Source: Verrucomicrobiota bacterium (GTDB lineage: Bacteria; Verrucomicrobiota; Verrucomicrobiia; Opitutales; Opitutaceae). Taken from it: a stretch of DNA of 64,000 bases. Every line of letters starts with the position of its first letter. Position 1 is the first letter of the stretch. Below, piece by piece: positions 1 to 10,332 of this stretch. The DNA lies in contig JAFEGO010000054.1 in assembly GCA_018239845.1 (NCBI GenBank), positions 1 through 64,000 on the forward strand, in the 5' to 3' direction. Position numbers and translations under genes: made by a program. The notes beneath the pieces were generated by a model. The model was not told the origin of the DNA, made no database searches, and saw nothing but the letters and a program-made list of their open reading frames with translations.

Positions 1-693
1 AATTTGGTCTGCTCGGTATGAAAAAATTCCGATCAAATTTGATGCATATTCACGAAATCCGTATTTAAATACAGTCCGTATAAGCTGAAATTTGATAGGT
101 TCGCGCCGGACTTCTCCAAGCCAGCGGAGACATACTACAATAACTACACCTCGAGAAACCATTTGCACCGCGAGTGCTGCATTTGGCGTTAGTGCATTTG
201 CGGCGGATAACAGCAACATTCCTATTAAAATGCATAATTGCTGCAGAAGCAAGAGTATGTTGCTTTTAGAAACCAAGCCGTCTGCAACCAACAAGCCATT
301 CAAGGACTGCTGTACAACTGCGCTACCAACGAAAAGTGCCATACACAGGGACGGTATAAGAACTAGCCCAGCAACGGCGCTCGGATGAAAAAAATAAAAG
401 AAAAGAGTGAAGCCAATTATGAGAACAATGCATTCGATAGCCCAAAGGCGGTAAATCCCATCAAGCAGCTCACCCTTATTCGCATGATTCTTAGCCGAAA
501 AATAGGTAACGGATGAAGATATTCCAAAGTCGCAAAATTGTGCTGCTAATGTAGCAATTAGCATCAGTAGAGCGTACTCGCCGCGCTTCTCTAACTCCAT
601 TGAGCGGGCTGCAACAGCATCCGCAAAGATGGCTATTAGTAAGGCAGCCATTCGGCCTGCGGTAGCTCCACAAGCTTGTCTCAAGACCTTCAT
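1..693 (-). CDS. Wzx-like polysaccharide flippase, partial (N-terminal 231 residues)
   Basis: The frame is open from an ATG at 693 to the left edge, so the 3' end is missing. The translation starts MKVLRQACGATAGRMAALLI and contains several hydrophobic segments. A stretch reading FGISSSVTYFSAKNHANKGE resembles the early-helix region of O-antigen and exopolysaccharide flippases of the MOP superfamily. Such proteins flip lipid-linked repeat units across the inner membrane. It starts one base after the stop of a 33-residue leader ORF that follows the regulator at 826-1368. The gene is visibly AT-richer than the rest of the window and uses TTA, CTA and ATA codons that are rare elsewhere, which suggests recent acquisition. 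The membrane nature is clear; the family assignment is by pattern only. Confidence 0.72.
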   Translation of the reverse strand, partial: MKVLRQACGATAGRMAALLIAIFADAVAARSMELEKRGEYALLMLIATLAAQFCDFGISSSVTYFSAKNHANKGELLDGIYRLWAIECIVLIIGFTLFFYFFHPSAVAGLVLIPSLCMALFVGSAVVQQSLNGLLVADGLVSKSNILLLLQQLCILIGMLLLSAANALTPNAALAVQMVSRGVVIVVCLRWLGEVRREPIKFQLIRTVFKYGFREYASNLIGIFSYRADQI

Positions 694-694
694 G

Positions 695-796
695 TCAGTG
701 GCTTTTTATATTGTTAATCATCGACAGGGAAAGCTTCGCCCCGTCGCTTCTGTTGTCACGGGCGACCTTGGGAATTTCGGCACTGATATCGGGCAT
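695..796 (-). CDS. 33-residue leader ORF between regulator and flippase
   Basis: ATG at 796, TGA at 697-695, one base before the flippase ATG at 693. It begins MPDISAEIPKVAR. The same 13 residues, with almost identical DNA, form the N-terminus of the ORF that follows the second regulator (start 9684). There are no indels between the two copies over about 21 codons. Homology then stops abruptly after the shared GAAGC. It could be a translated leader that couples regulator and cassette translation, or simply the remnant of a gene start carried along with the duplicated segment. No function is recognised. Confidence 0.45.
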   Translation of the reverse strand: MPDISAEIPKVARDNRSDGAKLSLSMINNIKSH

Positions 797-825
797 GAGA
801 CCAACCCATCCGACCGCAGGCGCGG

Positions 826-1368
826 TCAGGTAAGTTGCAAAAATGTCTTGGCGAGCGGCACGACCGCCCGGGCCTTGCTGTGCCAGGCCTGCAATTGCTT
901 CAGGCGCTGGCGCAGCACCTCCGCGTTTTCACCGGTCTGCGTGGGCACGAGCTGCTTCAATGCTGTCAGCTTGTTATTGCCCGCAGTCAGCTGCTTCTGG
1001 AGGCGTTCCTCCAGCCAGCGGCGGATTAACTTGCGCAGCTCCAGATCCGGCACGAAGCGTTCGCGGCGGTCGCCCTCGCGCTCGACCGCCTTCACCGCCC
1101 CCACCTCGCGCAGGACGCGCAGACCCTGGCTGATCGAACCCTTGCTGATATCGAGGCGTTGCTCAATGTCAGTGAAGCTCAGCGGGTTGGGCGAGGCAAA
1201 GACCACACCGTAGATCGCGGCCACGGACTTGGGCACGCCGAGCAGCTCAGCCGCGTCCAAGAAAAACGACACCATTTGGTGGTCGAATGCCACCACGTCC
1301 GCCGCCCGATCGCCGGGCAACACTAAGGAATCCCGGGGGATTGGAGGAAGTGTTGTCGCGGCTGCCAT
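826..1368 (-). CDS. GbsR/MarR-like transcriptional regulator, copy 1
   Basis: This is a 180-residue protein with a winged helix-turn-helix region around residues 60-105. It includes FTDIEQRLDISKGSISQGL, a recognition-helix arrangement typical of GbsR/MarR-type regulators. A charged wing (EREGDRRERF) and a C-terminal amphipathic stretch probably used for dimerisation follow. It is the first gene of the leftmost polysaccharide cassette. A conserved palindromic motif lies 36-54 bases upstream of its start. A paralogue at 9715-10257 is about 90 percent identical, with the recognition helix and the C-terminal 30 residues unchanged, so both proteins probably read the same operator. The ligand is unknown. 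The helix-turn-helix call is firm; regulation of the neighbouring surface-polysaccharide genes is inferred from position. Confidence 0.85.
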   Translation of the reverse strand: MAAATTLPPIPRDSLVLPGDRAADVVAFDHQMVSFFLDAAELLGVPKSVAAIYGVVFASPNPLSFTDIEQRLDISKGSISQGLRVLREVGAVKAVEREGDRRERFVPDLELRKLIRRWLEERLQKQLTAGNNKLTALKQLVPTQTGENAEVLRQRLKQLQAWHSKARAVVPLAKTFLQLT

Positions 1369-1403
1369 GTCGTGGCTGCGTTAATGGCGCCCCAGCCCAC
1401 TCA

Positions 1404-1441
1404 TTTCAATTCAAAATGAACAGAATCGAGTTACGATTCCG
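1404..1441 (-). promoter_or_regulatory. Candidate operator/promoter element upstream of regulator copy 1
   Basis: The plus-strand sequence tttcaattcaaaatgaaca at 1404-1422 is repeated exactly at 10293-10311, at a similar distance upstream of the paralogous regulator. It contains the inverted repeat TTCA-TTT-TGAA. A second block, gttacgat followed by ccg, is also shared just beyond it. The surrounding bases differ between copies, so these islands look selected. This would fit an autoregulatory operator. Confidence 0.5.
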
Positions 1442-1566
1442 TTTCCGCCTCCCGTCCCGAAATCTCAGTTCCTGCCGCGGCGGGCAGCTCACGAATTTAT
1501 TTACTGCTGATGAACTCCATATTTCACCCACACCACAGAAATGGTGGGCCCCGCGAACTAAAATCG

Positions 1567-2775
1567 TTAGACCCAAAGGGCATAACCCCGTAAGGCGTTT
1601 ATACCCAACAAAAAGCCAACGATCATCAGCGCCAACGCCAACTTGGCACCAATGGGGTATGCGCGATTGCGACCTAGCAGGAGCAGGAAGGGAATCGCCG
1701 CCACCACATAACGGGAGCTGAACTGGGCTACGATAGCACCGCAGCTAATTATCACCAGAACTGCGCTCCCGATCCAGACAGCATCAGTGGTGCTGCGGTT
1801 AGCCCAAGCCTCGGCAGCCACGCTAAAGAAATAGCCAAAAGCCAGTCCTATTCCGGCACCGAAAAAAGCCCGGCTGAATATTGCGGCGGAGTAGCTGTGC
1901 TCCGGAAAAAGCGTCAGAAGCACAGGCTCCTCAATTAGCCCGAGCGCGATATTGCCGATCAGCGTCGTCGAGAGCGCTACCAACATCCATCGGTTGAGCA
2001 CGTAGCCCGGATTGATGATGCAGCCCATGACCGCGCAGTAGATCCCTGCCTGGATGACATGCGGCAGAGAAAAGCCTCCGCTCAAATGCTCTTGGCCCGG
2101 GGGCGTAAGGCCACCCCAAAGCATAAGCAGCGTCTCCAGCGCGACGGTGGGTAGCACTGCGAGGAGAATTAACTCGACGAATTTTATCCGTTCCACGGCG
2201 TACCACAATGCAGCGAGAGGCAGCGCAAAGATGAGCGAAGTCTGCCGCGTAAGGACAGCCAGCGCGAACAAGGTCCCGGACAGGATGATGCGCGCCAGTC
2301 GATTCCATGGCGCCCAGACCATCGCAAACGCCCCCAGAGCAAACGCAAGCGCGAGCATTTCTGTGAGGGCCAGCGCGCCCGAAACAACAAAAGGTGTACA
2401 ACCTAAGAGCAGCGCCGCCGGAAGGGGGGCCGCTCCCGTAGACTTGCTTTGCTTCAGCAAGAATGCCGTCAGAAAATATACCCCAATAGCAGATAACCAT
2501 ACAAAGAGCCTCACCGCCCGCACATCGGGTGTGATACAGCCGATCAACGCCGAACTGAGGGGGAAAATCGGTCCAACAGCCGAAGGACTTTTCTCAGTGA
2601 AAATATCGCGCCAAGGTCGGCCTGCCGCTAACTCGTCCACCCGTTCCAGATGATAGCGCTCGTCATAAATGCGCTCGCGTGTGCTAGTCAAAATGCCCAC
2701 CAGTAACACGAGGGCGAACAATGCAGCACACCACGCGAATAGTTTCGTGGAGTTCAATTGAAGACGGATGTGCAT
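1567..2775 (-). CDS. Polytopic membrane protein, GT-C (ArnT/PMT-like) glycosyltransferase candidate
   Basis: This 402-residue protein has roughly ten hydrophobic segments. The first is at residues 12-30, followed by a loop reading RERIYDERYHLERVDELAAG. Acidic residues in the first external loop are a feature of GT-C transferases that use polyprenyl-phosphate sugars. The protein is shorter than ArnT (about 550). It lies at the 3' end of the polysaccharide cassette and reads toward regulator copy 1. A start at the ATG at 2775 gives a short charged N-terminus before the first helix. It could instead be a polymerase-type (Wzy) protein. The membrane topology is clear; the enzymatic class is tentative. 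Confidence 0.6.
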   Translation of the reverse strand: MHIRLQLNSTKLFAWCAALFALVLLVGILTSTRERIYDERYHLERVDELAAGRPWRDIFTEKSPSAVGPIFPLSSALIGCITPDVRAVRLFVWLSAIGVYFLTAFLLKQSKSTGAAPLPAALLLGCTPFVVSGALALTEMLALAFALGAFAMVWAPWNRLARIILSGTLFALAVLTRQTSLIFALPLAALWYAVERIKFVELILLAVLPTVALETLLMLWGGLTPPGQEHLSGGFSLPHVIQAGIYCAVMGCIINPGYVLNRWMLVALSTTLIGNIALGLIEEPVLLTLFPEHSYSAAIFSRAFFGAGIGLAFGYFFSVAAEAWANRSTTDAVWIGSAVLVIISCGAIVAQFSSRYVVAAIPFLLLLGRNRAYPIGAKLALALMIVGFLLGINALRGYALWV

Positions 2776-3254
2776 CGGGTATTTCAGAATTTCAACTCCT
2801 AGCCTCGTTCAACTAAGATCATTCTGTCGCATGGGATGCGCGAGCCAAATATCCTTTCACGCTAAAAGCCGAGGGCTGGATGAAGTAAAGAGACCCATCG
2901 AAAGTACGGACTGCGCTGCCGAGCGCATCGCAGCAATGCCAGCCTGAGCACCCGGCAAGTGTACAGAGCGTGGCCGAACACGGGCGCAAATGGCGCATGT
3001 AAGGCGCTTCAAATATACGACGGCAATGATGAGCGACACGCAGTAGGCGTGATTGAATGGAGTCTAAAGTTGGTCCTGTGGCCCATTTTTGGCTGGTGCT
3101 GCGCCCGACAATTTGTTATTTTGAGAAAGTAATTCTTAAGCGTCACCTCACTAAAAGTAACGTTTCGGTAAATCGACTCGAGTGATCTCGACCGAGCACG
3201 AATGAGGTTGGGAGCATGTACGATTGTGTCCGATTATTTTTCTACCAGAGAGCC
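2776..3254. other. 479-base gap without a recognisable gene
   Basis: The gap is noticeably AT-richer than the window average. The only ORF (2857-3039, minus, 60 residues) has no recognisable features and no ribosome-binding site. I see no transposase remnant, tRNA or strong hairpin. It separates the GT-C-like gene from the GT2 gene and may hold the promoter of the former or decayed coding sequence. Confidence 0.5.
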
Positions 3255-4016
3255 TTAACACCCGTTTGAGGGGCGGTGAGTCCCTGGCGGGATGTCAAGG
3301 TGCATGTAGCGCTTGACCAAGGCGACGGGCCAGGGAATGCGGAGCAACTCCAGGCTCGTTTCGTTGCGCATCGTCAAAAAGTCCTGCCGGTCCATGTTGC
3401 GCGCCACCGGCGTGTAGTCGTGATACATGGTCAGCGCCGGATAATGAAAGATATCCCAACCGTGCAACAATGCCCGGTAAGACAAGTCGCGCTCTTCGTT
3501 CTGTTTCACCAGCCAAGGGGAATAGCCACCCAGTTCCCGGTATCCGGCGGTCCGGCACATGAAGGCGCAGGCGGCGAACATCCGCACGGGATAGGGCTCC
3601 CGCCGCTGGCTCGGATTCATCGGTTTGCGTGCGCGGCCTTCGACGTAGGGAAAGGACAAGCCGAATATCTCCGGATGCGCCTGGAGGTAACCCACTGCTT
3701 CACTCACACTGCCGTCGATGGGATAGGAGTCGTCATCGCAAGAGAGCAGGTAGGGCGTGCGGCAGGCTTGGGCGATTTCGTTGCGCGAGGGGATCACACC
3801 TTGCGAGGTCTCGTGCCGGATCAGCCGCAGGGGGAACGGCAGCGGGCCGAAGGTCGCGGGATCGATCGGCGGCTGTGAACCATCGTCCACCAGCAGGAGT
3901 TCGGCTGCCTCCGGCGCCATGCGTGCGAGTTCGCGCACGGTTTCGGCCACGACGGCAGGACGGTCCTTGGTCGTGATCGAGATCGTGAAAACAGACTCCG
4001 GGGATCTATGGTTCAC
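3255..4016 (-). CDS. GT2 family glycosyltransferase
   Basis: This 253-residue GT-A fold transferase probably adds a sugar to a lipid-linked repeat unit at the cytoplasmic membrane face. It shows the N-terminal nucleotide-binding strand FTISITTKDRP, the motif LLLVDDGSQPP, and LLSCDDDSYP as the DxD-type metal/nucleotide-sugar motif. NEERDLSYRALLHGW fits the family's acidic catalytic region. The GTG start at 4016 is chosen because it overlaps the stop of the preceding fucosyltransferase as GTGA and puts the family's first strand near the N-terminus. A longer reading frame to 4082 would overlap the upstream gene by about 70 bases. Donor and acceptor are unknown. Confidence 0.85.
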   Translation of the reverse strand: MNHRSPESVFTISITTKDRPAVVAETVRELARMAPEAAELLLVDDGSQPPIDPATFGPLPFPLRLIRHETSQGVIPSRNEIAQACRTPYLLSCDDDSYPIDGSVSEAVGYLQAHPEIFGLSFPYVEGRARKPMNPSQRREPYPVRMFAACAFMCRTAGYRELGGYSPWLVKQNEERDLSYRALLHGWDIFHYPALTMYHDYTPVARNMDRQDFLTMRNETSLELLRIPWPVALVKRYMHLDIPPGTHRPSNGC

Positions 4017-4894
4017 AACCAGTCGTTCTCCACTTGTATCCAGTCGGTCCGTCGCAAACGCCGCGAGGCGTTGCGCCCCCACCGCTCATCCAAGGCGAAC
4101 CAACGTGCGGGCATCACCACCGATTTTCCCGCCGAACGGTGTGCTGCAGCCCACCAGCTAAAGGAGGAATTGGCGATCACGACCCGGCGAAAACGGCTCA
4201 GTCCGAAAAAATCCTGCCACATATCGCGGCGTCCGGCGTAACGCACCCCGTCTTTTCTGCAATGCGAGACAAACCAGTCCGCCGCATCTTCGGTCTCGCT
4301 AAAGACCGTCACAGGGCGGTCCGAACCAAGCGCATCCAGCGCCGCACGATAGTAGCCGGGTCCGAGCAAACCGTGCCGACGGCGGTTTTGTTCGTCCGAT
4401 TTGTAATCACCCCAACGCAGGTGCACCGCGATGCCTTCGTCTTCTACCCCGGTCTCCGCACCGGCACCCGCCTGCGGCAGGGCATTGAGGCGGCGGTCCA
4501 TCACATCCAGCACTTCCTTGTCGACGAATGTCACATTCTGCCAAAAGCCGACGGCCCAGACCGGAGGGCGGGTTGGGACTGGCGCACTGTCACTACGGCC
4601 TTCGTCATCCAGAAACAAGACCGGCGTGCGGCCCAAACCGGTGGCGCGAACCATCTTTAGCAGCAGGGCGTTATATTTGCCGCCCAACCAGTACGCACGC
4701 CGCCAGCCGAGCTCACTCCGCTTGGTCGCGAACGCTGCGCCCCCACACAACGACAAGGGAAGCGCCGTGCGACCCGATCCCGCGAGCCCCGTGGTATCGT
4801 AAACGACCTCGCGGCCAAACCTACGGCCCAGCCACTCTCCCAATGCCACTTGGAACAGTTGGTTTCCAAAACCGCAATCCAGTCGTACGACCAT
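4013..4894 (-). CDS. GT11 family alpha-1,2-fucosyltransferase
   Basis: This 293-residue enzyme transfers fucose from GDP-fucose. The N-terminus reads MVVRLDCGFGNQLFQVALGE, the typical GT11 opening. The motif IAVHLRWGDYKS corresponds to the HxRRGDY GDP-binding motif, with W in place of the second R. VIANSSFSWWAAA is the conserved C-terminal motif. The ATG at 4894 is preferred because GT11 proteins begin exactly there. A longer frame to 4990 would overlap the upstream gene, and a GTG at 4936 is a further alternative. The stop overlaps the start of the GT2 gene. The product would put a fucose branch or linkage in the cassette's polysaccharide. Confidence 0.88.
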   Translation of the reverse strand: MVVRLDCGFGNQLFQVALGEWLGRRFGREVVYDTTGLAGSGRTALPLSLCGGAAFATKRSELGWRRAYWLGGKYNALLLKMVRATGLGRTPVLFLDDEGRSDSAPVPTRPPVWAVGFWQNVTFVDKEVLDVMDRRLNALPQAGAGAETGVEDEGIAVHLRWGDYKSDEQNRRRHGLLGPGYYRAALDALGSDRPVTVFSETEDAADWFVSHCRKDGVRYAGRRDMWQDFFGLSRFRRVVIANSSFSWWAAAHRSAGKSVVMPARWFALDERWGRNASRRLRRTDWIQVENDWL

Positions 4895-4938
4895 TGGTTT
4901 CAGTGCGAGATCGATTGAGCTGTTCGGCTTCGACACGA

Positions 4939-5850
4939 TCAATTCCGATAGCTGTGAAACGACAGCGATTTCCAGTCTTTCCCGTAGCACTCGTGCAATT
5001 CGGCGAGAGGACGGAGCAACCCCCGTGAAAGGCTGGTGTTATAAAATGGCCGTTCCTGCATCACATCCGGATGGCGGTGCCACATCCAATACGCATAATT
5101 ATCATAATCCGACGTGCACGACGGCTCGTCGGGTGAAGCACAGCTCCGATAAGCCTGATCCCAAGGCACGCCGTGCCGGCCCTCCAACTCAGCTTTCATT
5201 TGGCGCAAGTAGTCGCGGTTGAAGAGCATCATGTGCGCCGTATAGGAAATCGACCGCGGCGCCGGATATCCGAACAGTGCCCGAAAAGCGGAAAGATAAG
5301 GCGGGTGCCATTCACCGCTTGTGAGGACGAAATACCTGCCGCCATGAGTGAAGACATGTCGCCGGACCAAGATCGTATCGGAATCCAGGACAAGGTAATG
5401 GCTCCGCTGCACCAATCCGGCCGCCGCCAGCTTGAGCAGCTGTTGAAACAACCATCCACTGCGATCCTGTCCGAGGGCCACATAAGGCACCGCCTCCTTA
5501 CCGTAGCCGAGCAACGATCGTTCGTCGGCAAACACGCAGCCTTGCGCCCGGCAAAATTCGACGGTGGCGGCGCTGTGTGGCGCGACAATGTAGATCGTAC
5601 CGATGGGGTGCCCGACATGACGGCGCACCCCGGCAAGCACTTCGTTCAGCAGGTCCAAATCCTTGGGCACAGTCGGGATCACGACATCGATTTCGACCCC
5701 ATCCGGCAGGGCATCGTCGTTAAAACCCATGCGGAACAACCATGCCGCACATAGCTTGTGCCATGCGGCGAACCGCCGCATGGGAATGCCCCCACCGCGC
5801 AGCCGTTGCTTTATCCCGGCAAGATAGATGTGCGGTAGACTCGGGCTCAT
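4939..5850 (-). CDS. DUF6492-type glycosyltransferase-like protein
   Basis: This 303-residue protein has a GT-A-like core: DVVIPTVPKDLDLLNEVL near residue 53, YIVAPHS, SGWLFQQLLKL, and YLVLDSDTILV, which supplies a DxD-like motif. The pattern matches the DUF6492 family seen in polysaccharide clusters, thought to be glycosyltransferase-related. It starts seven bases after the flippase stop and is followed by the fucosyltransferase, so it is co-transcribed with both. The biochemical role is unproven and the family assignment is from memory of its motifs. Confidence 0.72.
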   Translation of the reverse strand: MSPSLPHIYLAGIKQRLRGGGIPMRRFAAWHKLCAAWLFRMGFNDDALPDGVEIDVVIPTVPKDLDLLNEVLAGVRRHVGHPIGTIYIVAPHSAATVEFCRAQGCVFADERSLLGYGKEAVPYVALGQDRSGWLFQQLLKLAAAGLVQRSHYLVLDSDTILVRRHVFTHGGRYFVLTSGEWHPPYLSAFRALFGYPAPRSISYTAHMMLFNRDYLRQMKAELEGRHGVPWDQAYRSCASPDEPSCTSDYDNYAYWMWHRHPDVMQERPFYNTSLSRGLLRPLAELHECYGKDWKSLSFHSYRN

Positions 5851-5857
5851 ATCCTGT

Positions 5858-7171
5858 TCAGACTTGGGATGGATTGAATGCCGCGGTCATGTAAACCGCA
5901 GCCATGAGGGCAAGTCCCGCGCCCTTGCCGTAGAGGGGCGCCAACTCCGCGACCTGATCCTTCAAGACGAAGGAGACCGCCAGATAAATCACCGCGCCCA
6001 GCAATGCCGTCCGCATCACCATGATCTCGCGCCCGCTATAGTTCAGCACGGCGATAAAGATGAGACAGAGGCAGTTCAGCAGACTGACAAGGACCATTAG
6101 AACGAAAGCCGGGGCGGCTGCGGCAAACGCCACACCTAGGACAAGCCGGACCGCAAGGGCTCCGCCCAGCAAAGCCGCAACCGCACCGATCAGCAGGCCG
6201 GGCCCGAGCCAGCGGAAGACGGCACCGAGCTGCTCGACGACCACCTCGCCGCCCTGGCCGCTCCAATCCAGAATACGGGCGGTAAGCACCACGGGGACAA
6301 TCGTGATGAAACTCTGCGCGGCATTGTTCATCGTCAGAGCCGCCCGATACGCTCCCGCTGGATGGTCGCCGAAGAAATATGCGACAAACAGTACATCCGT
6401 GGCCATGATCGCACCGGTCACGTTGGTGGCGATGAGCGGATAATTCTCCCGAGCCCGGGCACCGATGTCAGCCAGCCACCGATTCACAGTCTGGCGTCCA
6501 TCCAACCACGGTCCGCCCAATTTGCGTTTCGCGTAGCCGAGCGTGCCAATCAGCGCAAAGAGATTGGCCGCGGCCAGCGCGATCAAGTAGGTTTCCACTG
6601 ATGGGTATAGCACCACCAGCACAAGATACAGCAGACAGTTGGCGCCCGCCGTACCCAGCTGAATCCAACCCCAGGCGCGCAGGCTGTCATTGCCTTGGTG
6701 AAACCACTGCACGGTGAGCGAAGACGAGGTGATGGCCAGCACCGCGCAGCAAATCGTGACCACCGAGTGCATCGACCCAGCCGCCGATCCTACGCGGAGG
6801 AGCAGCATCAGGCCGACGCCCGCCACTGCCAGCAGGCCGCCGAGGAACAGCCGCATGCCCAGCAGCGACACGAACACCTGCAAACGTCGGGGTGGCTCTG
6901 TATGTGCGATCACCTGGGCTCCCCGAACATCGATACCTAAGTCCCAAATCAGGGCCAGTAGCGGAGTCAGCGCGACCAGCTCTGCCGCTATGCCCACCTT
7001 GTCCGGTCCAAGCACCCGGAGCGCGCTTGCCACTCCAAAGAATGACAATAACCGGGCTCCTAGCTGCGCCAAAGCCAAGCCCATCGCATCACCGAACACC
7101 CGCCCTCCGGATTGCAGCTTCAACACGGCTTTCCCCACACCTACGCCCGGTTGCGTGGCACCGACATTCAT
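5858..7171 (-). CDS. Wzx-like oligosaccharide flippase (MOP superfamily)
   Basis: This 437-residue protein has about twelve hydrophobic segments. A typical N-terminal section reads VFGDAMGLALAQLGARLLSF and then FGVASALRVLGPDKVGIAA. It should export lipid-linked repeat units made by the neighbouring transferases across the inner membrane. The ATG at 7171 is chosen because it overlaps the upstream gene's stop as ATGA. The longer open frame to 7384 lies inside that gene and has no membrane character. This is a second flippase besides the partial one at 1-693, consistent with two separate polysaccharide cassettes. Confidence 0.82.
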   Translation of the reverse strand: MNVGATQPGVGVGKAVLKLQSGGRVFGDAMGLALAQLGARLLSFFGVASALRVLGPDKVGIAAELVALTPLLALIWDLGIDVRGAQVIAHTEPPRRLQVFVSLLGMRLFLGGLLAVAGVGLMLLLRVGSAAGSMHSVVTICCAVLAITSSSLTVQWFHQGNDSLRAWGWIQLGTAGANCLLYLVLVVLYPSVETYLIALAAANLFALIGTLGYAKRKLGGPWLDGRQTVNRWLADIGARARENYPLIATNVTGAIMATDVLFVAYFFGDHPAGAYRAALTMNNAAQSFITIVPVVLTARILDWSGQGGEVVVEQLGAVFRWLGPGLLIGAVAALLGGALAVRLVLGVAFAAAAPAFVLMVLVSLLNCLCLIFIAVLNYSGREIMVMRTALLGAVIYLAVSFVLKDQVAELAPLYGKGAGLALMAAVYMTAAFNPSQV

Positions 7172-9684
7172 TTCGCTGGAACCTCCTCCGAGACGGAAGC
7201 CGCCGCGTTTTTCACGGCGATGAGGCAGAAATCGTGGCGGGCCAGCCGGAATTTCACCCGGCCATCGGGGTCGACCGGGAGTGCAGCACCGGTTTCCGCG
7301 TTCGCAGCGGTGATATCCCCGCCGAGGCCCAGTGCCCGCGCATCCAGTTTCAAGGCGAGTTCGCCGCCCTGGCCGTAGTCGCACACCACGACGAGCACCT
7401 CGCCGGGCTTGCTCAGGCAGAGCGTGGACGCATCCGTGCCTTCGACGGCAACCGGGTTGCCCTGCTGCCAGTAATTGTGCACCGCGACACCGGAGCGGCC
7501 GTAGCCGAAATTGACCAGCATGCGGTAGGCATCGCGCCAGACCTTCGGGCCACCGATGAACTTGACCTCATGCACCAGGGCGACGCCAGCGACCGTACGA
7601 TTGATCCACTCCACCTTGGCCGGGTCCGAGGTGTCGGTCAGCACCATGCCAAACGGCACCATCCCGTGCTGCCGGCCGATGCTCTCGGCCCGCAGGTATT
7701 CGCGGGTATGACGATCCTGGAAATCCCTGTCGCCTTTCTGATCCTCCCACGTGAGCAGCATCTGGCCGTAGGCCAGCACCGGCGCGACTGCGGCGTTGGT
7801 GGTGTGGAGCATGTTGCGCGCGGGGCGGTGCATCTCCTGGTCCAGCACCGCCGTGCGACGGATCAGCTCACGCATGGCCCACAGTCCGACCGCCGGCCGG
7901 ATCTGGCCGTCCGGCAGCCGGAAGGCGTCCGTGCCCGCCGGGATGTAGGTGGACTGCAAAAATGTATCATCCCAATAAATACCTTCGACAAACGTCCCGA
8001 GCATCCGGCGGTAGTACCACACACAGTAGTCCTGAAAGCTTTCCGCCAGGTTGGCGTCGTACCAGACGGCTCCGCCCTCCGGCCACTCCCGCTTGGGGTA
8101 GGCAAACCGGCACCACTCATTCAGGAAGGTCCGCCCCTCGGGCGTGTCGAAGCGCACACCACGCGGATTGGTGTAAACGACCACAGGGTCAGTCCCGCTT
8201 TCAGCGACCTTGCGGTAGCCGTAGCCGGTCTCACGGGCCGCTTGCTCCCGGCGGGGGCCGGCGGGCACGCGCTCCAGCCACTTTTCCATATAGGCCGGAT
8301 CGATGCGCCCCGCCTTGCGTGCGCGCACAAATTCATCCCATAGCCCGAAGTCCTCGCCCCAGGGATAGACGTCGGCGCAGGGCGTGAGCGCACCCCAGCT
8401 CCAGCCCGAGCCGAGAAACCGCAAATTCTCGCCACCTTCCCTCATCACCTCGGGATAATCCAGCGTGGTCAGCCGCCAGTTGGCCGGCATCGGCTTCGTC
8501 GGCGTGGCTTGGAAACCGAGGACGATCCGGCGCGGTGCATCAATCGTAACCGGACTGGCAATGAGGTTGAGCCTTAGCTCCAGTCCGCCGGGTCCGCGCC
8601 GCAGTTCCTGACAAGATACACCTTTCGCGGTCACCCAACCGCGTTCGTTTTCCCCAAACACCGCGAGGCCGCGCTCTTCACCGCCGAGCCAGATATAGGG
8701 CACATAGGTGCCGCCCAATGTGCGGCGGTCGGCCTTGCTGCCATCCCAGATCCGCCCGGTGCCGGCGGGCACTGCCCCGGCGTAGTTGATGCGGATGCCA
8801 TCCGTGCAGGCGTGCATCAGCGGGGCCTGCCGCTCATCGATGGGGATAATGAGGGTCAGCGCCTGGATCGGGCGGGTAGCGGGCGTCAGCTCCAGGGTCC
8901 AACGCAGCACGCCATCATAGCTCCACTCGCCCTCGGCGCGGCCCTCCTTGAACTTCGCCTCGGTCACCACGCGCGTCGGCGTCTTGGTCGTGATGCGGAA
9001 ATTCCGCGTAGTGATCTCGCGGGACTTTCCGTCCTGGACGATTTCCAGCCGCATGGGCCGCGTGAGCAGGCCGGCGCCCAGACTCGTCACTTGCAACCAG
9101 AGGCCGAGCGAGGTGAGGTCGTGCTCCCGGAGGATGGTGCTCACCCGGCGACGCTCCACGTGCAGCGGGGTGAAAGGCGGCACCACAATATCGGAGCGGC
9201 CGAGCTGGTTGTGCTCCCAAGGAAAAAACCGCCGCTCGAAGCGGAAGGTCTGCTCGGGCACGTCTCCGCCTTCCAATCGGACGCTGCATTCGTAGACGCC
9301 CTCGCTGAGGACCGGCAGCGGCCACTCCACGTTGGTCGGTTTGTCGGCGGTCACGGACAGTTGTTTTTCGGCAATCGGAGTGGCGCCGCCTTCCTGCCGG
9401 ATGACGAGGGGCGCCTGCTTTACTTGGGTGCGATCAGGACGACCGCTGAGGTCGATCTGCAGGACACAGAAATTGAAAGACGGATAGTACCCAAACTGCA
9501 CCACGGGGGCCTGAGGCTTGGCGGGGGCCGCAGCCGCCGCCGAAGCTGCCCCGCTCACGATCACCGTCATGATCCCCACCGCGCGCCACCAGGAGCGGCG
9601 GACCGCCGCCACGCGACCAGGCTTCGCCCCGTCGCTTCCGTTGAATCGGGCGACCTTGGGAATTTCGGCACTGATATCGGGCAT
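7168..9684 (-). CDS. Exported glycoside-hydrolase-like protein (GH123/DUF6067 type suspected)
   Basis: The ORF is 838 residues. Residues 1-24 repeat the leader seen at 695-796. A Sec-type signal peptide follows (VRRSWWRAVGIMTVIVSGA, then an alanine-rich cleavage region). A GTG at 9612 would start directly at that signal peptide, so the mature product may not contain the leader. The N-terminal half looks like beta-sandwich modules. The C-terminal half contains VEGIYWDDTFLQ, which fits paired acidic residues of a TIM-barrel hydrolase, and AVWYDANLAESFQDYCVWYY. It is translationally coupled to the flippase. It may trim or degrade the cassette's own polysaccharide. The family is suspected, not certain. 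Confidence 0.65.
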   Translation of the reverse strand: MPDISAEIPKVARFNGSDGAKPGRVAAVRRSWWRAVGIMTVIVSGAASAAAAAPAKPQAPVVQFGYYPSFNFCVLQIDLSGRPDRTQVKQAPLVIRQEGGATPIAEKQLSVTADKPTNVEWPLPVLSEGVYECSVRLEGGDVPEQTFRFERRFFPWEHNQLGRSDIVVPPFTPLHVERRRVSTILREHDLTSLGLWLQVTSLGAGLLTRPMRLEIVQDGKSREITTRNFRITTKTPTRVVTEAKFKEGRAEGEWSYDGVLRWTLELTPATRPIQALTLIIPIDERQAPLMHACTDGIRINYAGAVPAGTGRIWDGSKADRRTLGGTYVPYIWLGGEERGLAVFGENERGWVTAKGVSCQELRRGPGGLELRLNLIASPVTIDAPRRIVLGFQATPTKPMPANWRLTTLDYPEVMREGGENLRFLGSGWSWGALTPCADVYPWGEDFGLWDEFVRARKAGRIDPAYMEKWLERVPAGPRREQAARETGYGYRKVAESGTDPVVVYTNPRGVRFDTPEGRTFLNEWCRFAYPKREWPEGGAVWYDANLAESFQDYCVWYYRRMLGTFVEGIYWDDTFLQSTYIPAGTDAFRLPDGQIRPAVGLWAMRELIRRTAVLDQEMHRPARNMLHTTNAAVAPVLAYGQMLLTWEDQKGDRDFQDRHTREYLRAESIGRQHGMVPFGMVLTDTSDPAKVEWINRTVAGVALVHEVKFIGGPKVWRDAYRMLVNFGYGRSGVAVHNYWQQGNPVAVEGTDASTLCLSKPGEVLVVVCDYGQGGELALKLDARALGLGGDITAANAETGAALPVDPDGRVKFRLARHDFCLIAVKNAAASVSEEVPAK

Positions 9685-9714
9685 GGGAACAACCCACCCC
9701 GACCGCAGGCGCGG

Positions 9715-10257
9715 TCAGGTGAGCTGCAAAAATGTCTTGGCGAGCGGCACGACCGCCCGGGCCTTGCTGTGCCAGGCCTGCAATTGCTTCAGGCGCTGGC
9801 GCAGCACCTCCGCGTTTTCACTGGTCTGCGCGGGCACGAGCTGTTTCAGCGACGTCAGCTTGTTGCTGCCCGCCGTCAGCTGCTTCTGGAGCCGGTCCTC
9901 CAGCCAGCGGCGGACGAGTTTGCGCAAGGCCAGATCCGGCACGAAGCGTTCGCGGCGGTCGCCCTCGCGCTCCACCGCCTTCACCGCCCCCACCTCGCGC
10001 AGGACGCGCAGGCCCTGGCTGATCGAGCCCTTGCTGATGTCGAGGCGTTGCTCGATGTCCGCGAAGCTGAGCGGAGTCGGCGAGGCAAAGACCACACCGT
10101 AGATCGCGGCCACGGACTTGGGCACGCCGAGCAGCTCGGCTGCATCCACGAAAAACGTCACCATCTGGTGATCGAAGGCCACGAGCTCCGCCGGCCGGTC
10201 CCCGGGCAGGACCAGGGAATCACGCGGGATCGCGGTAAGTGACGCAGCGGCGGCCAT
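9715..10257 (-). CDS. GbsR/MarR-like transcriptional regulator, copy 2
   Basis: This 180-residue paralogue of the protein at 826-1368 has about 18 substitutions by eye. None falls in the helix-turn-helix core DISKGSISQGLRVLREVGAV or in the last 35 residues. It lies between the sugar aminotransferase gene (102 bases upstream) and the exported hydrolase-like gene (30 bases downstream), all on one strand. The start ATG at 10257 is preceded by the conserved palindromic motif. Its position suggests control of the hydrolase-flippase-transferase cassette and, given identical recognition residues, cross-regulation with copy 1. Confidence 0.86.
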   Translation of the reverse strand: MAAAASLTAIPRDSLVLPGDRPAELVAFDHQMVTFFVDAAELLGVPKSVAAIYGVVFASPTPLSFADIEQRLDISKGSISQGLRVLREVGAVKAVEREGDRRERFVPDLALRKLVRRWLEDRLQKQLTAGSNKLTSLKQLVPAQTSENAEVLRQRLKQLQAWHSKARAVVPLAKTFLQLT

Positions 10258-10292
10258 ATCGTGGATTCCCTTATGACGCCACCGATATGCAG

Positions 10293-10332
10293 TTTCAATT
10301 CAAAATGAACAAAACAAACGTTACGATCCGGT
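10293..10332 (-). promoter_or_regulatory. Candidate operator/promoter element upstream of regulator copy 2
   Basis: The sequence tttcaattcaaaatgaaca is identical to 1404-1422. The second conserved block, gttacgat followed by ccgg, starts at 10320. The element is 36-54 bases upstream of the regulator ATG, as in copy 1, while the bases between it and the start have diverged. Confidence 0.5.

Follow-up and report, generated by a model that had tools for sequence, protein, structure and literature searches.

To our knowledge, the recognition targets of NusG paralogs beyond RfaH and LoaP are largely open. In the JUMPstart/ops system of RfaH (RF01707; PMC2864571, PMC5995543), the leaders of polysaccharide operons carry a stem-loop and, directly after it, a G-rich core that ends in AGC, an arrangement shared by the element described here. 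The ops core can form a GC-GGTA-GC hairpin with a C3:G8 pair (PMC5995543). RNA hairpins also serve the recruitment of a NusG paralog in the case of LoaP (PMC12691694).

The locus compared here with these systems lies in the window (the whole stretch of DNA that was analysed, 64,000 nucleotides of an Opitutaceae genome, G000). It contains a duplicated regulator block, the most informative part of which is an antitermination-type element that the initial annotation missed. On the best reading of the comparative evidence, the element and its factor would be a new variant of JUMPstart/ops with a specialised NusG paralog related to RfaH and UpxY.

The duplicated block and the genes below it

The segment at 733–1441 recurs at 9621–10332 in direct orientation with 87% DNA identity, confirming the 0.7 kb duplication first noticed from the sequence alone. 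The copy starts are 8.89 kb apart, and a search of the whole 4.23 Mb assembly found these two copies only. On the minus strand, each copy runs from an operator palindrome through a MarR/GbsR-like regulator and a short non-coding tail with the leader element to polysaccharide genes. The features are as follows.

1–693, minus strand: second flippase, opening the gene set of copy 1 and truncated at the contig end (PF01943, 31.8 bits)
729–768, minus strand: copy 1 leader element, stem GTCGC (766–762)/GCGAC (747–743), core GGGGCGAAGC (742–733) (model R1, 42.7 bits)
826–1368, minus strand: copy 1 MarR/GbsR-like regulator, 180 aa (PF12802, 31.8 bits, cut-off 27)
1405–1421, minus strand: copy 1 operator palindrome GTTCATTTTGAATTGAA (pattern search)
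1567–2775, minus strand: multi-spanning GT-C-like protein (weak NF046093 match, E 3.6e-5, below cut-off)
3255–4082, minus strand: GT2-family glycosyltransferase (Pfam)
4013–4990, minus strand: GT11-family glycosyltransferase (Pfam)
4939–5850, minus strand: DUF6492 protein (Pfam)
5858–7167, minus strand: Polysacc_synt flippase (Pfam)
7168–9612, minus strand: GH123_N-like protein, first gene under copy 2 (Pfam)
9617–9656, minus strand: copy 2 leader element, stem GTCGC (9654–9650)/GCGAC (9635–9631), core GGGGCGAAGC (9630–9621) (model R1, 43.5 bits)
9715–10257, minus strand: copy 2 MarR/GbsR-like regulator, 180 aa (PF12802, 32.3 bits, cut-off 27)
10294–10310, minus strand: copy 2 operator palindrome GTTCATTTTGAATTGAA (pattern search)

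The initial annotation placed two complete polysaccharide gene sets between the copies. Pfam bears out the gene families, and also a DegT gene at the locus, but the GT-C call comes from one weak match below the cut-off. All genes lie on the minus strand, so that copy 2 heads the GH–flippase–DUF6492–GT11–GT2 operon, which runs from 9.6 to 3.3 kb, and the GT-C gene comes last. The GH123_N-like gene probably starts with the GTG at 9612, which lies 5 nt past the modelled element. The window and contig C73 begin at the same base, and the remaining genes under copy 1 therefore fall outside the contig. The assembly break at this point may itself be repeat-related. GC3 is near 0.9 in the flanking housekeeping genes and 0.41–0.80 in the polysaccharide genes; a lowered GC3 is usual for exchanged surface loci.

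The regulator proteins of the two copies are 90% identical over 180 aa. The copies have diverged (dS 0.38, dN 0.05), and they are old and constrained. Their longest identical runs are 97, 59, and 43 nt, and the regulators share an identical stretch of 31 codons (permutation p 0.0007), which hints mildly at gene conversion or at local constraint. Downstream, the alignment of the copies breaks off a few bases past GGAAGCGACGGGGCGAAGC, and this 3′ edge of homology, just after GGGGCGAAGC, is the probable functional boundary of the block. That the duplication ends at the core suggests at least one move of the whole cap as a functional unit.

What is the function of the upstream palindrome? The 17-bp operator GTTCATTTTGAATTGAA occurs genome-wide only at its two sites in the block, even when two mismatches are allowed. 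Both regulator copies score above the PF12802 gathering threshold, which places them among the MarR-type winged-helix proteins. Of 39 homologous regulators, 26 have the pattern TTCA-N8-TGAA upstream, where shuffled sequences predict 0.09, and this conservation suggests that GTTCATTTTGAATTGAA is a likely autoregulatory site. A second regulator subtype (L057, L058, L059, L062, L063) has no leader element, and instead of TTCA-N8-TGAA its upstream palindromes are mostly of the ACAAAAATTTTTGTAA kind.

The leader element: stem and core

The element consists of a short stem (5′ GTYRY...RYGAC 3′), closing directly before GGGG, and an invariant 10-nt core, GGGGCGAAGC. This non-coding hairpin and core are the conserved part of what had been annotated as the start of a leader ORF; the 21-aa peptide of that ORF has no convincing match in any fetched locus other than the window copies, and we no longer regard it as a gene.

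Covariation was assessed on 60 distinct rows, which had been collected under a nearly invariable 3′ arm and fitted to a model of the same stem. In these rows, 98.1% of the stem cells are paired, compared with 93.5% after shuffling, and two-sided changes are seen in three of the five stem pairs. The R–Y pair alternates between G–C (24), A–U (22), and G–U (11), and this use of G–U pairs favours an RNA stem. When the partner is slid by 1–3 columns, pairing falls to 12–59%. Stem position 6, which lies outside the model, pairs in 34 cases, against a shuffled mean of 20 and a maximum of 29.

Because these rows were fitted to a stem model, a separate test was made, which is the independent one. A 19-mer comprising the 3′ arm and the core, and thus leaving the 5′ arm free to vary, was run against 84,980 species genomes. 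It gave 111 stretches, and nearly all of the titled ones belong to Opitutae/Verrucomicrobia. A register-exact stem of at least 5 bp is present at 68 of 103 Opitutae/Verrucomicrobia sites (untitled ones included), compared with 1 of the 10 sites from other phyla.

When copy 1 was folded by itself as RNA, another pairing was preferred, and the window copies have weak folding z-scores. In DNA, the core can form a GC-GAA-GC mini-hairpin, whose predicted stability is modest and depends on the flanks.

RF01707 gave no match to the window copies (L001, L002) at E up to 10, and Rfam otherwise returned nothing relevant there. In the open-access literature, no paper joins RfaH, the ops element, and Verrucomicrobia; co-mentions of RfaH with Verrucomicrob are passing only, as judged by counts and titles, and the subject of the one paper matching Opitut and antiterminat is sigma54. 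The hairpin-plus-GGGGCGAAGC leader element is so far undescribed, a novelty that is provisional and refers to the open-access literature.

Distribution of the element and its co-occurrence with a NusG paralog

The element follows homologous regulators at 19 of 27 Opitutaceae regulator loci, and in about half of the fetched neighbourhoods of homologous regulators, the regulator's stop codon is followed by the string GGAAGCGACGGGGCGAAGC or a close variant. At a few loci from other Opitutales families, GGGCGGTAGCGTG or GGGCGGCAGC takes its place; GGGCGGTAGCGTG, the ops sequence of E. coli, is present in L050. At that locus, from an Opitutales genome outside Opitutaceae, a classical JUMPstart RNA (RF01707, 35.4 with a gathering score of 35) directly follows the regulator at L050:9670–9726 on the minus strand. 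In related genomes, regulators with the same operator and 3′ element front differing polysaccharide genes. The initial proposal of a modular 5′ cap is thus supported, in revised form, by many relatives, but this genome holds a single pair.

The 15-mer GYGACGGGGCGAAGC has 75 sites in 95 genomes, compared with 5 for its reversed control. A loose 13-mer with one mismatch was indistinguishable from its control (34 and 31 sites), and only the 15-mer or longer strings and the stem model were therefore used. Of the 113 sites considered in the 19-mer scan, 50 precede an amidotransferase (CGI[AS]G), with none on the opposite side. The genes under the element encode asparagine-synthase/GATase proteins, epimerases, GT4 enzymes, flippases, ABC-2 exporters, nucleotidyltransferases, and GFO/IDH proteins. 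The next gene begins from about 5 to more than 300 nt away, with the start codon often at 8–35 nt; this spacing is too variable for a ribosome-binding site. In some genomes (G140, G213, G386), the element sits ahead of the regulator's own gene. A third, weaker element in G000, at C41:17102–17139 (L244:3001–3038; 27.6 bits), has no regulator block and lies 11 nt before a gene for an asparagine synthase–GT4 fusion.

Most genomes hold 1–3 copies, in sense orientation and before the same kinds of genes across genera. The G006/G053 and G041 lineages have many elements before small non-polysaccharide genes. Exact 15-mers number 18 in G006 (L214–L225) and 10 in G041 (L234–L238), several of them arrayed at a spacing of 1.4–2.2 kb before small hypothetical or secreted proteins. 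Inspection of the G006 arrays by eye revealed no core site matching an integron attC. Two other RNAs were seen among the fetched loci: a Guanidine-II riboswitch above its gathering score (L214:9585–9632) and a partial MISL RNA (L076:19824–19901), which is cut off at the end of the fetched sequence and, with 70 bits, falls far short of its gathering score.

Which factor might read the element? The genome encodes NusG (C83) and one divergent paralog.

C11:21543–22043: orphan NusG paralog, 167 aa (PF02357, 35.7 bits, cut-off 22.2)

The NGN domain of the paralog scores above the PF02357 gathering threshold and thus belongs to the NusG-domain family. Its E-values are 9e-19 for UpxY, 3e-9 for RfaH, and 0.009 for NusG. 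The best of all families, UpxY (NF033644), gives 68 bits, short of the cut-off of 100, and RfaH (TIGR01955) gives 36.9 bits, short of the equivalog cut-off of 144.5.

With orthologs of the paralog taken at E below 1e-20 and elements at E up to 1e-5, 31 of 95 genomes have both, 11 the paralog only, 1 the element only, and 52 neither (Fisher p ~1e-14). In 305 further genomes, the counts are 24, 12, 3, and 266 (Fisher p ~1e-23), and within the family alone in the first set, p is 1e-7; since the genomes are related and the co-occurrence is phylogenetically structured, these p-values overstate independence. Local contrasts are the stronger evidence. Within genus g44, the paralog and strong elements are confined to G213, whose paralog gene is divergent from an operator–regulator–element–epimerase/glycosyltransferase operon (L288:6700–9321). 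In another family, f24, the paralog and the element occur together in G140, G159, G171, and, weakly, G083. Outside Opitutaceae, seven genomes (G061, G068, G071, G079, G086, G087, G090) have a NusG-domain gene within about 100 nt after the regulator, one of which scores 4e-25 with RfaH. Four genomes (G058, G100, G181, G367) have a strong element match without a detected ortholog of the paralog. The congener G001 has the paralog and no convincing element, and the homologue search in relatives found no regulator copy in it. A query of genome contigs with a single regulator protein gave no match.

The element could instead be a signal in the RNA that has nothing to do with NusG paralogs, such as an attenuator, a site for an RNA-binding protein, or a translational element. 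The G–U pairs suit an RNA, and the element often lies shortly ahead of a start codon, but the distance to the next gene varies widely, the element co-occurs strongly with one NusG paralog, and the same position in L050 is taken by a JUMPstart RNA. We consider a signal of this kind unlikely. A REP/MITE-like palindromic repeat landing between genes would account for a short palindrome that has expanded in G006/G053 and G041; it hardly accounts for the low copy number, sense orientation, and constant kind of downstream gene elsewhere, nor for an invariant core just 3′ of the stem, and of the explanations weighed here it is the least probable.

The block as a whole might be mainly a recombination substrate, with the paired copies allowing cassettes to be deleted, duplicated, or swapped. 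Direct 0.7 kb repeats with identical runs of up to 97 nt, the identical 31-codon run, and the sharp end of homology at the element speak for this, but the genome has a single pair with a dS of 0.38, and relatives have just one cap or a small number of them, located at different loci. This role is improbable, somewhat more so than that of a signal independent of NusG paralogs.

Proposed control and comparison with known systems

We think it likely, from the anatomy of the locus and its relatives, that each copy is a two-layer control cap, with a repressor acting at initiation and a specialised NusG paralog at elongation, and that the caps head two polysaccharide operons. In the first layer, the MarR/GbsR-like protein would bind the GTTCAttttgaatTGAA palindrome in its own promoter, and through autorepression the regulator and the co-transcribed polysaccharide genes would share one gated promoter. 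In the second, RNA polymerase moving past the regulator gene would transcribe the stem-loop and then GGGGCGAAGC, which would act together as a JUMPstart/ops-type element, with pausing, and recruit the C11 paralog. The paralog-loaded polymerase could then cross a long operon of foreign composition by antitermination, without stopping early. Duplication of the entire cap, whose 3′ junction coincides with the end of the core, would have placed it before two polysaccharide gene sets.

Across hundreds of genomes, an invariant 10-nt core and its covarying stem follow the distribution of a single paralog, which makes the pairing directly testable. Model R1 provides a sequence tag for finding polysaccharide operons in Verrucomicrobiota, and the results suggest that the hairpin and ops-like architecture is used beyond Proteobacteria. 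More tentatively, at slightly less than even chances, the portable operator–repressor cap would be part of a two-layer switch for surface polysaccharides that is distinct from E. coli ops.

How does this arrangement compare with the described systems? Like JUMPstart, the element has a conserved stem directly 5′ of a core in the leaders of polysaccharide operons, and in both a mini-hairpin closed by C–G on G–C is possible, GC-GGTA-GC in ops and GC-GAA-GC here. However, its core is GGGGCGAAGC rather than the ops core GGCGGTAGCG, T6 is absent, and the stem has its own sequence. Unlike JUMPstart/ops, it often lies behind a MarR/GbsR regulator, and it is found in Opitutaceae. The UpxY antiterminators of Bacteroides (NF033644), the best-scoring curated family for the C11 paralog, also have polysaccharide operons as targets; however, UpxY sits inside each operon, whereas the C11 paralog is encoded apart from its putative targets and scores below the family cut-off. 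LoaP, with the dfn/mln leader hairpin, is likewise a NusG paralog working with an RNA hairpin in the leader, but that hairpin has a UNCG tetraloop without an ops-like core, and the targets of LoaP are antibiotic clusters (PMC12691694). Finally, the window regulator most resembles GbsR/CudC (NF047500) within NCBIfam (E 3e-10), where its 40 bits stay far below the equivalog cut-off of 218, and its context is polysaccharide genes rather than choline.
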